Shown piece by piece: positions 58,513 to 62,688 of a stretch of 64,000 nucleotides of DNA. A program made the translations under genes and the position numbers. Below the pieces are notes generated by a model that saw nothing but the letters and a program-made list of their open reading frames with translations, ran no database searches and was not told the DNA's origin. The stretch is from Pontibacter burrus (GTDB taxonomy: Bacteria; Bacteroidota; Bacteroidia; Cytophagales; Hymenobacteraceae), in NCBI RefSeq assembly GCF_010686685.1, contig NZ_JAAGWD010000003.1:124001-188000 (forward strand), in the 5' to 3' direction. How positions within the stretch are numbered: position 1 is the first letter of the stretch; each line of letters starts with the position of its first letter.

Positions 58513-58570
58513 TTGATAAAGGTCAATAACATTATTGATGCAAGTCATCATTTGTGAACTGATTCCGATA

Positions 58571-58578
58571 TACTTTTG
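58571..58578 (+). promoter_or_regulatory. Candidate -7 element of the Cys-rich protein/TonB receptor/BNR operon
   Basis: TACTTTTG matches TAnnTTTG, 56 nt before the ATG at 58635. A TTG is 16 nt upstream, shorter than the usual 19-21. Confidence 0.5.
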
Positions 58579-58634: not shown

Positions 58635-59012
58635 ATGAGAAATTTCTTTGTTATATCGCTACTGGCCATTATGCTGCTGCAGATTTTCAGCAAGGTGGTG
58701 GTCGTAGTTGATTACCAGGCGAACAAAGAATTTATTATGGAGTTTCTGTGCATTAACCGCGACAAGCCCGAACTGGAATGTGAAGGCAAGTGCCAACTGA
58801 CCAAAAAGCTGAAGGAGCAGCACGAGACAGATAAACAAACCGATGAGCGTGGTCAGAAACAGGAAGTGCAGGTAAATCTGTACTGCCAGAATCTGTTCTC
58901 GCTTCCAGCCTCCATACATCCAGCTATAGTTTCTTATTCCACAGTTTATAGTTGCAACTATAGTTCTGACGTACATCAGAGCATTTACCACCCACCACAG
59001 TTTATAGTTTAA
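58635..59012 (+). CDS. Small Cys-rich exported protein
   Basis: This 125-residue protein has an N-terminal hydrophobic helix (about 4-24), MRNFFVISLLAIMLLQIFSK, that is a signal or anchor. A conserved core follows: FIMEFLCINRDKPELECEGKCQLTKKLKE, with C39, C49 and C53 in C-x9-C-x3-C, and further cysteines at C84 and C107. From memory, Bacteroidota homologues share CxNxDKPxxxCxGKCxL and precede TonB receptors in loci thought to handle metals, possibly copper, though I cannot prove this. It is followed by the TonB receptor gene about 100 nt downstream on the same strand. Confidence 0.82.
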   Translation: MRNFFVISLLAIMLLQIFSKVVVVVDYQANKEFIMEFLCINRDKPELECEGKCQLTKKLKEQHETDKQTDERGQKQEVQVNLYCQNLFSLPASIHPAIVSYSTVYSCNYSSDVHQSIYHPPQFIV

Positions 59013-59113
59013 CCAGCGGGCGTGTGCGCCGCCATTTCTTATTGCAAAGGTGTATGCCTGTTGCATGCTTTGTCGCACGCTTCTAAATCTGATAAACTAT
59101 AAATTTTACTGAC

Positions 59114-61405
59114 ATGAAAAGGTTGGTAACCGGCTTTGTGTGCCTGATGGCACTGTGCCAGATAACTTATGCCCAAACGATAACCAAAGGGCAGGTAATA
59201 GATGCTTTAACCAAAGAGCCCCTATATGGCGTAACCATACGCACCACCGATGCCAAAGCCGGAACTATAAGCGGTATTGACGGGACTTTTAACCTGAATA
59301 TGCCGGCGCCTGCCGACTCGCTGGTGTTCTCATACATTGGTTACGATCTTCAGAAAAAGCCTTTAAATAAAGGTGAACTGCTGGTGCAACTGAAACCATC
59401 CTCAAACCAACTGAACCAGATTGTGGTTTCGGCCAGCCGCGAGGCGTCTACCCGTACGCAAACGCCTGTTGCCATCAGTGCCATTTCAAAAGAAGTACTG
59501 CTCGAAACCAAGCCTGTATCGCTGGAGCAGGTGCTGAATAAGGTAAGCGGCGTATATATGGTAAACCTGGGCAACGAGCAGCATACCATGGCTATTCGTC
59601 AGCCAATAGGCTACAAGAGTCTGTTCCTGTACCTGGAAGATGGCATTCCGATCCGCACAACAGGTAACTTTAACCACAACGCCCTTATAGAGATAAACAT
59701 GGGCGCCCTGCGCAATGTGGAAGTTATTCGCGGACCTGCTTCATCGCTTTACGGCAGCGAAGCCATCGGAGGCGCAATCAACTTTATAACCCAGGCCCCT
59801 GCCCAGATTTTTACGGCAAGAGTTCAGGCCGAAGGAAGTGACCGCGGTTATCGTCGCACGGATTTCAGCGTGTCTAACACTTTTGGCAAGCTGGGTGTGT
59901 ATGTGGCTGGGTATTATGCGGCACAGCGCAATGGTATTATAGAACACAGCGATTTCGATAAACTGGCACTCACCCTAAGAGCTGACTATAGTTTTAGCGC
60001 CACTACAAAACTGATTACCTCTGCCAGCCTGGTAGACTATAAAACCGACCAGACCGGAGGACTGGACAGCACCCGTTTTTACAGCAAGGAATATAGCAGT
60101 CTGCACACTTTTACTTACCGCAAAGTGGATGCATTGCGTTTGAGAGCCACCCTGGAACACAAATGGAATGCCCAGCACAGCACACAGGTAACCGGCTTTT
60201 ACCGCAACAATGCCATCGGCCAGAATCCGTTTTATGCCATCAAAAACGTAAAAGGAAACCCACTGAAAGCCCAGGGCGAGCTGAACGAAGATGCCTTTCA
60301 GAGCTTTGGCTTTGTTGCACAGCATAAAACCATGTTCTCGTTCCTGGATGCACAGCTCATAAGCGGTATCAGCACCGACTATAGCCCTGCATCTTACGAG
60401 GCTGAGCAGATCGACATTGACAGAAACGAAACCGGGAAATACACGAACTATAGCAAAACCGGCACGCTGCTGACCGATTACGATGTAAAGCTACTTAACA
60501 CAGCAGCCTATGCCCAGTTCGAGCTAAACCCGATCGAGAAACTGAAAGGGGTTGCGGCCCTGCGTTATGATAGGCTGGATTTTGATTTTGATAACCACCT
60601 GGAGCCTGGAGCTTTTACCGGTGCGCCGGATGAGAAGAACGGTTTCCAGAGCCTTACCCCGAAACTTGGCCTAACTTATGACCAGGGCCGCGACATCGGG
60701 CTGTACACCAACTATAGTGTAGGATTTACCCCGCCACAGATTACGGAACTATACCGCGGCGTGCAGGTGCCTATACTTAAGCCTGCCAACTATAACAACT
60801 ACGAGCTTGGCGGCTGGATCAGTTTTGCGCAGACCAAAGGCTACCTGGATGTAAGCTTTTACCAGTTGGATGGAAGAAATGAGATCGTAAACGTGCGGTT
60901 GGATGATGGCTCTTACGAAAATCAGAATGCCGGACGTACCCGCCACCGCGGCTTGGAATATACCCTGAAATATGCACCGGTTGACGGGCTGAACTTCCGC
61001 TTTAGTGGCACCAATGCAAAACACGCTTACATAGAATATAACGAGAAGGGAGTTGAGTTTGCAGGTAAGGAAATGGCAACAGCTCCGCGCTTTATCAGCA
61101 ACACCGAAGTAACCTACAAACCTGCTCTTGTAAAAGGTTTGCGCCTTGGCCTGGAGTGGCAACACATGGACAGTTATTACTTGGATGCGGCAAACTCTGA
61201 GAAATACAGTGGCTACGAGCTGCTGAATGCCAGGATCGGGTATGTGCTGATTGGATTTGATCTATGGGCGAATGTACTGAACCTGACCAACGAACTATAT
61301 GCTACCACCGCAGACAAAAATGCCTGGGGCAAGAGCTACCGTCAGGGCGCACCAAGAACCGTGCATCTGGGAATTGGCTATACGCTGGGCGCAAGAGCAA
61401 AATAA
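59114..61405 (+). CDS. TonB-dependent receptor
   Basis: The 763-residue outer membrane receptor has a signal peptide (MKRLVTGFVCLMALCQITYAQ). A CarboxypepD_reg-like domain (about 24-100), a TonB-box-like segment (LNQIVVSASREAS, about 99-111) and a plug (about 115-225) with GIPIRTTGNFNHNALIEINM and VIRGPASSLYGSEAIGGAINF follow. A 22-strand-sized barrel ends with HLGIGYTLGARAK. It is a real TonB receptor, unlike the three barrel paralogues elsewhere in the window. The neighbours suggest import of metal or a metal-loaded ligand; this is inferred. Confidence 0.93.
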   Translation: MKRLVTGFVCLMALCQITYAQTITKGQVIDALTKEPLYGVTIRTTDAKAGTISGIDGTFNLNMPAPADSLVFSYIGYDLQKKPLNKGELLVQLKPSSNQLNQIVVSASREASTRTQTPVAISAISKEVLLETKPVSLEQVLNKVSGVYMVNLGNEQHTMAIRQPIGYKSLFLYLEDGIPIRTTGNFNHNALIEINMGALRNVEVIRGPASSLYGSEAIGGAINFITQAPAQIFTARVQAEGSDRGYRRTDFSVSNTFGKLGVYVAGYYAAQRNGIIEHSDFDKLALTLRADYSFSATTKLITSASLVDYKTDQTGGLDSTRFYSKEYSSLHTFTYRKVDALRLRATLEHKWNAQHSTQVTGFYRNNAIGQNPFYAIKNVKGNPLKAQGELNEDAFQSFGFVAQHKTMFSFLDAQLISGISTDYSPASYEAEQIDIDRNETGKYTNYSKTGTLLTDYDVKLLNTAAYAQFELNPIEKLKGVAALRYDRLDFDFDNHLEPGAFTGAPDEKNGFQSLTPKLGLTYDQGRDIGLYTNYSVGFTPPQITELYRGVQVPILKPANYNNYELGGWISFAQTKGYLDVSFYQLDGRNEIVNVRLDDGSYENQNAGRTRHRGLEYTLKYAPVDGLNFRFSGTNAKHAYIEYNEKGVEFAGKEMATAPRFISNTEVTYKPALVKGLRLGLEWQHMDSYYLDAANSEKYSGYELLNARIGYVLIGFDLWANVLNLTNELYATTADKNAWGKSYRQGAPRTVHLGIGYTLGARAK

Positions 61406-61425
61406 ACTATAAATCCGCACAACAC

Positions 61426-62688
61426 ATGACACGCTCATTCAACATACTTTATACTTTGTTTCTGGCGCTGTTTCTGGTAATTGCCAGTTGCAGCCAGAAC
61501 CGCCAGCCAGCTAACCAGGCAGATTTTGCACAGGTACCGGCTTCGCCTGTTTCAATTTCAACGCCGGGATTGTCGGCATCGTGCCCGTACCTAACCCAGG
61601 ATAATAATGGCAACGTGGTGCTGAGCTGGGTGCAGGCTATTGATACTACGGAAAATTACCTGATGGCTTATGCTGTTTCTGATGACGGTGGGAAGACCTT
61701 TGGCGAAATGCAAACTATAGCCACCACCAAAGGAGTACACCCGCACGACGAGAACCTTCCCCGGATCCTGTACCGGAGCAACGGCGATATCATTGCCATG
61801 TATCCGGTTAGCAATCCGAATCCGAAGAACAGTTATGCCGGACTGGTTTTTTACACGCAGTCGTTTGATGGTGGTAAGACCTGGACCGAAGCCAGGCAAC
61901 TGTCTGAAGACACGGTTAACAGCATAGATGAACGCTATTTTGATATGGAAGAGCTACCAAACGGGGAAGTAGGGGCCATCTGGCTAGACTCCAGAAAAGA
62001 AACCGACAAGGAAGGCTCCAGCTTATACTTTGCCAGTACAAACGGGCGCAACGGTTTTACAAATGAGAAAGTGATCGATACCCAACTCTGCCAATGCTGC
62101 CGCACGGATCTGTATGTAGATAATGAACAGCAATTGCACGTGGCGTACCGCGGCATCCTCAACGACAGCATCCGCGACATGATGCACCTGGTATCATTAG
62201 ACGGAGGTAAAACATTCTCAGGACCAGAGCGCATCAGCGCTGATAACTGGGTAATTGATGGTTGTCCGCATACTGGCCCGGCTATGACCTCGAATAAGTT
62301 TGGAATGCACTATGCCTGGTTTACGATGGGCGGTGGAAGCGGCGTGTACTATAGCCAAAAAGAGCCCGGCAAAACCTTCACTCCCCGCGAAACTATAAGC
62401 AATGCACCGGCAGCCCGGCACCCACAACTCAGCACGTTCAATAATGGAAAACTGGCTATAGTCTGGGACGAACGAGGCGGCAGCGACAAGAAAAGCAACT
62501 ACATTGGGTTACAGATCCGCAGCGAGAACGGAGCCCACCTGAGAACCGCACAGCTTACAGCAGCCAATGGCAATGCAGTGTACCCGGTTATCACAACTAT
62601 AAAAGACAAGGAGCTGCTGGTAGCTTATACAGTTAAGAAAGATAATGGCAATGAAGTGTGGTGGCAACTGGTAAAACCTGAGATATAG
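61426..62688 (+). CDS. BNR-repeat (sialidase-like) lipoprotein with CxCC motif
   Basis: I chose the start at 61426 because the longer ORF runs over the TonB receptor's end in another frame, whereas MTRSFNILYTLFLALFLVIASC is a proper lipoprotein signal (C22). The 420 residues form a probable six-bladed propeller with Asp-box repeats SDDGGKTF (85-92), SFDGGKTW and SLDGGKTF. Sialidase active-site residues are not evident. Four unusual cysteines stand out: C53, C222, C224, C225 (LCQCCRTDLYVD) and C280 (DGCPHTGPAM). They suggest metal or heme binding rather than glycan cleavage. The gene lies 20 nt behind the TonB receptor and is probably in its operon. Confidence 0.85.
   Translation: MTRSFNILYTLFLALFLVIASCSQNRQPANQADFAQVPASPVSISTPGLSASCPYLTQDNNGNVVLSWVQAIDTTENYLMAYAVSDDGGKTFGEMQTIATTKGVHPHDENLPRILYRSNGDIIAMYPVSNPNPKNSYAGLVFYTQSFDGGKTWTEARQLSEDTVNSIDERYFDMEELPNGEVGAIWLDSRKETDKEGSSLYFASTNGRNGFTNEKVIDTQLCQCCRTDLYVDNEQQLHVAYRGILNDSIRDMMHLVSLDGGKTFSGPERISADNWVIDGCPHTGPAMTSNKFGMHYAWFTMGGGSGVYYSQKEPGKTFTPRETISNAPAARHPQLSTFNNGKLAIVWDERGGSDKKSNYIGLQIRSENGAHLRTAQLTAANGNAVYPVITTIKDKELLVAYTVKKDNGNEVWWQLVKPEI

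Follow-up and report, generated by a model that had tools for sequence, protein, structure and literature searches.

A putative copper-import operon in Pontibacter burrus with a Pro-Pro-ending leader, a TonB-dependent receptor and a CxCC propeller lipoprotein

Three consecutive plus-strand genes of Pontibacter burrus, at positions 58,635 to 62,688 of the 64,000-nucleotide (nt) stretch analyzed here (the window), encode a small cysteine-motif protein, a TonB-dependent receptor, and a BNR β-propeller lipoprotein. Sequence comparison suggests that they probably constitute a copper-import operon similar in type to cruR-crtA-crpH but built from different parts, i.e., an arrest leader, a copper receptor, and a CxCC propeller. 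The observations underlying this assignment are the three-gene unit, its conserved residues, the near-fixed spacing between the Cys motif and a terminal Pro-Pro, the copper-related gene neighborhoods, and the interchange seen at the third gene. Metal uptake or sensing, as proposed in the initial annotation of the locus, is supported by the gene context and can be narrowed to copper. The relevant features are as follows.

58635..59012, plus strand: putative leader (upstream open reading frame, uORF) protein of 125 amino acids, with an N-terminal hydrophobic segment, the Cys motif, a poorly alignable spacer, and a C-terminal YHPPQFIV
58749..58793, plus strand: putative Cys sensor motif C39-x9-C49-x3-C53, which includes a CxxxC and is invariant in 22 homologues
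58989..58997, plus strand: His-Pro-Pro codons of the C-terminal [F/Y]HPP motif, a ribosome-arrest site proposed from family conservation
59013..59113, plus strand: 101-nt intergenic gap, a control region proposed from the gap lengths across named loci
59114..61405, plus strand: TonB-dependent receptor of 763 amino acids, a copper importer proposed from Pfam, fold match, and conservation
59558..59602, plus strand: plug stretch from Met149 to Gln163 (..NEQHTMAIRQ), with Met149, His157, and Met159 invariant in 40 receptors
61426..62688, plus strand: BNR β-propeller lipoprotein of 420 amino acids with four invariant Cys, identified by Pfam, alignment, and fold
62089..62100, plus strand: propeller CxCC motif (C222, C224, C225), from alignments
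62263..62265, plus strand: fourth invariant propeller Cys, C280 in GCPH, from alignments

The open reading frames (ORFs) and Pfam matches confirm the arrangement first noted at these positions, in which a C-x9-C-x3-C protein, a TonB receptor, and a propeller with LCQCC and two more Cys follow one another on the plus strand. The 474-residue ORF listed for the propeller begins within the receptor gene, and the lipoprotein likely starts at the ATG at 61426, 20 nt past the receptor stop.

The three genes form a conserved unit. Sequence surveys covered 200 genomes of the window's family and 395 genomes of its phylum. A propeller match of some kind is found in 42 of the 200 family genomes and a close one (E-value below 1e-60) in 23, one of these matches being in two pieces. 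The 76 named propeller loci come from Pontibacter, Rufibacter, Adhaeribacter, Chitinophaga, Dyadobacter, Flavobacterium, and other genera, with the closest homologues in Pontibacter species. All 76 harbor the propeller, which is split over two ORFs in L143, and 71 harbor leader, receptor, and propeller together. In 70 loci, the trio is ordered, on one strand, and spaced within 600 nt, and the receptor ORF is unbroken; the trio is also complete in L093, but there the receptor is split over two ORFs. The Cys protein was undetected in five of the 76 (L090, L091, L092, L096, and L097), of which L091 is a contig edge with a receptor-barrel fragment detected by Pfam. The median gap after the Cys gene is 102 nt versus 2 nt between receptor and propeller (named loci, longest-ORF starts). 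The genes flanking the unit vary between genera; a POT transporter and CorA were rejected as members, as only the nearest Pontibacter genomes have them next to it.

Copper-responsive leaders provide the template for interpreting the first gene. In Bordetella pertussis, CruR heads crtA and crpH; copper is sensed by a CXXC of its nascent chain, and a C-terminal RAPP is the site of ribosome pausing (PMC9426467). CutF works through a CxxxC and a Pro-rich end (PMC9973294), and arrest has been reported for the motifs RAPP and RGPP (PMC12992588). The initial annotation had assigned the small protein the role of a periplasmic Cys chaperone. It is built like a copper-sensing arrest leader and is probably a leader instead, because a Pro-Pro at the stop, a near-fixed Cys-to-Pro-Pro spacing, and a same-strand next gene match the CruR/CutF layout.

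The family profile was built from 22 homologues, in all of which C39, C49, and C53 are invariant, and finds members in 140 of the 395 phylum genomes (E-value ≤ 0.01). Eighty regions from the profile list, chosen by rank and genus rather than randomly and in part to lie away from propellers, together with six loci from propeller hits, yielded 91 members above 25 bits. The looser pattern C-x7-11-C-x3-C is present in 88 of these 91. Pro-Pro lies 1–8 residues ahead of the stop in all 91 and within 4 residues in 83, whereas it occurs in the last ten residues of only 6 of 217 other ORFs of 90–199 amino acids and 1 of 424 ORFs of at least 200 amino acids in the same loci. Because the C-terminal motif is part of the profile, members whose match stops short of the C-terminus were inspected. 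There are 18 such rows, and all 16 that were fetched end in Pro-Pro. The ending is FHPP, FRPP, or FQPP in 70 of the 71 leaders at named loci. From the third Cys to the Pro-Pro, the distance in the 88 members with the Cys pattern is 67.3 residues (standard deviation (sd) 2.17, range 63–74), while protein length varies more (sd 13.4). The next gene of at least 150 codons is on the leader's strand in 89 of 91 cases.

The leader has no Pfam match at E-value ≤ 1, and its profile has no relative among solved structures at E-value ≤ 10. PF11162 (DUF2946) is found in none of 19 genomes searched, the window's own included. The hydrophobic nature of the N-terminus was judged by eye. Neither the family nor arrest by an FHPP-type leader was found described in the literature searched (open-licence PMC papers, supplements excluded).

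Seven divergent receptor-propeller loci from the same phylum, outside the window's class, were compared; one of them, L090, is also a named locus. Small upstream ORFs end in RGPP in four: L190 (RGPPSA), L192 (RGPPAA), L193 (RGPPVV), and L309 (RGPPAA). In L189, the upstream ORF ends in FHPPRLVG. No Pro-Pro-ending upstream ORF was seen in L090 or in L188, whose propeller gene comes before that of the receptor. It is unlikely that gene 1 encodes a periplasmic Cys copper chaperone, with gene 3 capturing metal at the surface and gene 2 importing it. The invariant Cys motif, the copper gene context, and a Met/His-rich propeller insertion in one homologue (L053) would suit such an arrangement; however, a chaperone needs neither a stop-adjacent Pro-Pro nor a near-fixed spacing over a poorly alignable linker, as found in 91 of 91 members, and the RGPP-ending ORFs that head similar receptor-propeller pairs are differently composed.

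Gene context supports copper as the metal of this locus, as far as neighboring families can indicate. Directly behind leader-family genes are 86 genes (91 members minus five), which include 39 TonB Plug proteins, 16 MbnP, 6 YtkA, 4 Phenol_MetA_deg porins, and 3 SCO1; the one in L183 encodes a second leader. Leader-locus neighbors scanned singly comprise MbnP, CCP_MauG, SCO1, PCuAC, PepSY_TM, HMBD, YtkA, and YHS. CCP_MauG adjoins MbnP in leader loci, and MbnP and MbnH are taken here to be copper proteins. SCO1 lies behind the propeller of the three-gene unit in L180, and MbnP is present in L358. The distant propeller of L187 has CopC, HupE, and a thioredoxin-like gene as neighbors, and that of L191 has an HMBD P-type ATPase three genes on.

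The receptor harbors the Pfam domains Plug (PF07715), β-barrel (PF00593), and CarbopepD_reg_2. Met149, His157, Met159, His188, His611, His637, and Met654 are invariant in 40 aligned receptors, the other 39 of which share 39–83% identity with that of the window, and they are candidate copper ligands on this basis; no Cys is invariant among the 40. The predicted model (predicted local distance difference test (pLDDT) 81.2) is nearest in fold to PqqU, YncD, FhuA, FoxA, and FecA, with a template-modelling (TM) score of 0.75/0.86 for PqqU. An iron or haem system, in which the receptor imports a ferric chelate and gene 3 aids iron release, would fit these folds. It would also fit the best NCBIfam match of the receptor, TonB-siderophor, which is below cut-off (162.9 of 223.5), and the few characterized PepSY_TM proteins, which are ferrisiderophore reductases (PMC13038864). 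Nevertheless, this assignment is rather improbable in view of the leader-family neighbors MbnP, SCO1, PCuAC, HMBD, and YHS and of the CrpH-type PepSY_TM, which is tied to copper (PMC13038864).

The third gene has a BNR_2 (PF13088) match above cut-off (E-value 8e-12), as well as Asp-box matches. Besides the lipobox C22, its Cys residues are C222, C224, and C225 of LCQCC, C53, and C280. An alignment of 49 propellers, with identities as low as 39%, has C222, C224, C225, and C280 at invariant positions; thus, of the two further Cys pointed out initially, C280 is conserved, while C53 is outside the invariant set. CxCCxT and GCP motifs are present in all 75 full-length named homologues. CxCC is also found in all 53 distant propellers detected (54 loci searched; L314 had no called match) and in all 19 shorter propeller relatives within the family. 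In the predicted model (pLDDT 88.4), the fold is sialidase/lectin-like, with 8q82_A as a match (Z 31.7, root-mean-square deviation 2.6, 309 residues aligned). Conservation along the chain has weak autocorrelation peaks at lags of 51–54 and 39–41, which were not used as proof. The CxCC propeller was not found described in open-licence PMC papers, supplements excluded.

Among solved structures, the propeller is closest in fold to Photorhabdus lectins, CylK, and sialidases. Together with the BNR_2 and Asp-box matches, these folds would allow the propeller to be carbohydrate-active or a lectin and the operon to serve glycan use. This is very improbable, considering that identity to those folds is about 6–15%, that four invariant Cys would presumably be superfluous for such a role, and that shorter propeller relatives adjoin metal ATPases. 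Furthermore, no glycan family occurs among the nine genes that were scanned in the flanks of four named loci (SprA, short-chain dehydrogenase, PKD/CHU_C, TonB receptor, PepSY_TM, FtsX/MacB, ABC ATPase, SecA, and one gene with no family match). Of the two outcomes initially named as contradicting a metal role, unconserved Cys and a carbohydrate-regulated locus, neither was seen, the Cys being conserved and the nine genes being those just listed. A carbohydrate role was rejected as the principal assignment, as Pfam, NCBIfam, and fold searches yield the propeller fold only; a sequence search of solved structures gave weak matches only.

Surface export of lipoproteins is signaled by acidic residues after the lipid Cys. 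Among 49 propeller homologues examined, 42 have a recognizable lipid Cys, and at least two acidic residues directly follow it in 2 of these 42 by a rough pattern. The surface capture suggested in the initial annotation is therefore disfavored; the propeller, which stands in for PepSY_TM at its operon position, is more likely a periplasm-facing partner, as judged from sequence. The homologue at L053:9236-10561 contains a Met/His/Asp-rich insertion, HGDMDMGMHMDKEG, just ahead of the GSSLY strand; a copper-binding loop might look like this.

Two further kinds of CxCC propeller were encountered. A second, shorter one of 349–375 amino acids is of the CECCKPS or CPCCRPS type (L034, L035, L054-L066, and L068-L071). 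Among its 74 neighbors at 19 loci are six E1-E2 ATPases, three HMA, one ACR_tran, two DUF3347, and one Cation_ATPase_C match, with an RND gene beside it in part of the loci; this type may belong to metal resistance. The distant propellers of L310, L311, L315, L319, L322, and L333, and likewise those of L334, L336, L337, L339, L340, and L343, are each preceded by a gene encoding 131–155 amino acids. Five of these products were read and appear by eye to be hydrophobic membrane proteins, and two that were scanned have no Pfam family.

Behind this receptor family stands either a CxCC propeller or a PepSY_TM protein, the latter identified by a Pfam match in one protein (L238, E-value 9e-12) and by a profile of four in the rest. 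The phylum sample contains 16 leader-receptor operons, including L182, whose receptor follows an extra ORF: six have the propeller, eight have PepSY, and two lie at the end of the fetched stretch, a 6:8 ratio that means little because the propeller operons were fetched on account of their propeller. The partner-type PepSY is found in none of 82 propeller loci (a profile search of the loci rather than the whole propeller genomes), and the propeller is found in none of 27 PepSY loci (8 phylum and 19 family).

Within the family, 65 of 200 genomes encode the receptor, 24 of them with an E-value of 0. A close propeller is present in 23 of these 24, the exception being G039, which is 78% complete. 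From the remaining 41 genomes, 20 receptor loci were fetched, as PepSY was expected there. PepSY lies beside the receptor in 19 of the 20 and a propeller in none; likewise, no propeller was found anywhere in those 20 genomes at E-value ≤ 0.001. Leader matches are present in 17 of the 20, all of which end in Pro-Pro.

The propeller and PepSY kinds interleave in two receptor trees, which have 61 and 71 tips. Four Flavobacterium propeller receptors nest inside PepSY receptors (supports 1.0, and 0.94 or 0.88), and the receptor of the PepSY locus L254 groups with those of L178 and L181 (1.0, 0.996). The least number of label changes is 7 on the 69 labelled tips of the larger tree, for which no shuffles were made. 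The trees imply repeated swaps of gene 3.

In B. pertussis, CrpH supports haem-copper oxidases, and the authors of that work put forward, as speculation, a role as copper reductase (PMC13038864). Since non-homologous proteins exchange at one operon position, the propeller and PepSY may share a job, from which it is proposed that the propeller accepts or reduces copper via its thiols. Tentatively, and at slightly less than an even chance, the CxCC propeller represents a new class of copper protein, either a thiolate Cu(II) reductase or a Cu(I) acceptor, that has been repeatedly swapped with PepSY_TM in operons headed by copper-sensing arrest leaders of the FHPP type.

Each element of the mechanism proposed for the copper-import operon is inferred: the binding, import, and reduction of copper, as well as arrest, the direction of control, and location. 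The hydrophobic N-terminal segment of the leader would take the nascent chain to the Sec translocon, C-x9-C-x3-C may bind copper, and the ribosome would pause at the Pro-Pro near the stop. Under copper scarcity, this pause would let expression continue into gene 2; when copper is bound, the pause would be relieved and expression would drop, possibly because Rho terminates transcription within the 100-nt gap and the 3′ portion of the leader. The receptor would import copper or a copper chelate, with Met149, His157, and Met159 of the plug as candidate ligands and Met654, His188, His611, and His637 as further candidates. The propeller, lipid-anchored and probably on the periplasmic side, would accept copper through its clustered Cys and C280, probably reducing Cu(II) or stripping the metal from its carrier, and hand it on towards oxidase assembly. 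Two weaker features may bear on control.

58869..58998, plus strand: stretch with C in excess of G at the 3′ end of the leader ORF, a possible Rho-utilization region by base composition
58551..58578, plus strand: weak promoter-like site TTTG-N16-TACTTTTG between corA and the leader gene, by pattern only

The 3′ end of the leader contains 27–29% C and 13–14% G in 78-nt windows. C exceeds G in the 3′ part of 83 of 86 homologous leaders versus 33 of 86 in the 5′ part, and also in the gap (61 of 86) and at the start of the next gene (49 of 86). By analogy with the Rho-related bubble of cruR, this stretch is a possible Rho-utilization region, although amino-acid bias alone could explain part of the imbalance. 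The promoter-like site presumably resembles the TAnnTTTG type, which is taken here to be that of Bacteroidota.

Several observations weigh against the copper-import assignment. The terminal motif is mostly FHPP, FRPP, FQPP, or PPP, unlike the arrest motifs RAPP and RGPP, and the Cys-to-Pro-Pro spacing of 67 exceeds the 45 of CruR and CutF. One leader, in L143, has no Pro-Pro, in the same locus as the split propeller, and two phylum leaders are followed by a gene on the opposite strand. Propellers without an adjoining leader or receptor occur in the Dyadobacter loci L092, L096, and L097. Among the 20 propeller-less family receptor loci, the leader match is missing in three, and L365 has a Pro-Pro-ending ORF upstream of the receptor but no PepSY. 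The least number of label changes on the 61-tip tree, 5, equals the minimum of the shuffles (mean 7.7), so that partner kind follows receptor ancestry only in part. Copper enrichment was also sought beside the distant propellers and is not clear: among 104 same-strand neighbors, none of the 25 commonest of 90 families is a copper family. These neighbors include eight TonB receptors, seven peptidase M19, four thioredoxin-like proteins, and three each of DsbA and VKOR, and CxCC could accordingly be a thiol-redox feature there. Finally, a shorter PepSY_TM type (372–396 amino acids) is present in 3 of 82 propeller loci. In L078:11321-14822 and L079:11321-14829, it follows a second TonB receptor on the same strand behind the unit, and in L179 it lies about 8 kb from the unit. 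The exclusion is limited to the third place of the operon and the longer PepSY partner type, and does not extend to PepSY_TM at large.

Two additional observations were made. Behind the unit in L133 (8333-11420) lie genes for a small Cys protein, an HMA protein, and a receptor-like protein that contains AACCNLSESFE and has only a carboxypeptidase-like domain by Pfam; these are possibly a second metal system. In the window (1-64000), the palindrome CTATAG is strongly over-represented, occurring 119 times, in genes and gaps, whereas 14.9 occurrences (sd 3.8) are expected and the highest count in 100 shuffles is 25.

Copper entry into Gram-negative bacteria is poorly known, and little was found for Bacteroidota in the literature searched. 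Copper-related RAPP/RGPP leaders are reported in various lineages, with groups such as Bacteroidota excepted (PMC12992588), and many Bacteroidota CutF-like proteins are listed but not described in the accessible text of PMC9973294. If the assignment is correct, the FHPP-type leader family would be the missing Bacteroidota counterpart and a marker of copper operons across the phylum. The PepSY_TM/propeller swap would offer a genetic test of CrpH-type function, as mutual replacement would mean shared copper reduction or release.

Among known propellers, the sialidase-like and PHL/PLL lectin proteins share the fold and Asp boxes with the window's lipoprotein, which differs from them in its four invariant Cys and copper context. 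OprC is, like the window receptor, a TonB-dependent receptor, and its Met/His ligands include an HxM pair (PMC8610252). However, its site is CxxxM-HxM with HxM in the barrel wall, whereas the window receptor has its HxM in the plug and lacks an invariant Cys. CutF-like proteins are defined by a length below 150 amino acids, Pro-Pro within the last 15 residues, a same-strand gene within 1000 nt, and an N-terminal signal peptide (PMC9973294). The window leader fits the first three rules, with 125 amino acids, Pro-Pro four residues from its end, and the receptor 101 nt downstream; its N-terminus looks hydrophobic by eye, and it shares a CxxxC with these proteins. Since Bacteroidota make up 19–40% of the CutF-like list (PMC9973294) and the rules that can be checked agree, the leader family may already be within it, unnamed. 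CutF itself controls a multicopper oxidase via a stem-loop, with copper prolonging the pause (PMC9973294), unlike the control proposed here.

The closest parallel is cruR-crtA(bfrG)-crpH of B. pertussis, with a like order of leader, TonB transporter, and envelope partner (PMC9426467, PMC12914433, PMC13038864). The two systems share a Cys motif, a near-stop Pro-Pro, a long gap after the leader, and a bubble of C over G, as well as a PepSY_TM third gene in sister loci of the window's receptor family, which is likened to crpH by domain and place. The parts themselves differ. The window leader is not a DUF2946 protein and ends in FHPP; its family has C-x9-C-x3-C and an FHPP-type end 63–74 residues apart, in contrast to the CxxC and RAPP of CruR, which are ~45 residues apart. 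The published CrtA logo has two conserved His but no conserved Cys or Met (PMC12914433), whereas Met149, Met159, and Met654 are invariant in the 40 receptors aligned here. In the third place, where B. pertussis encodes CrpH, the window has a CxCC propeller.

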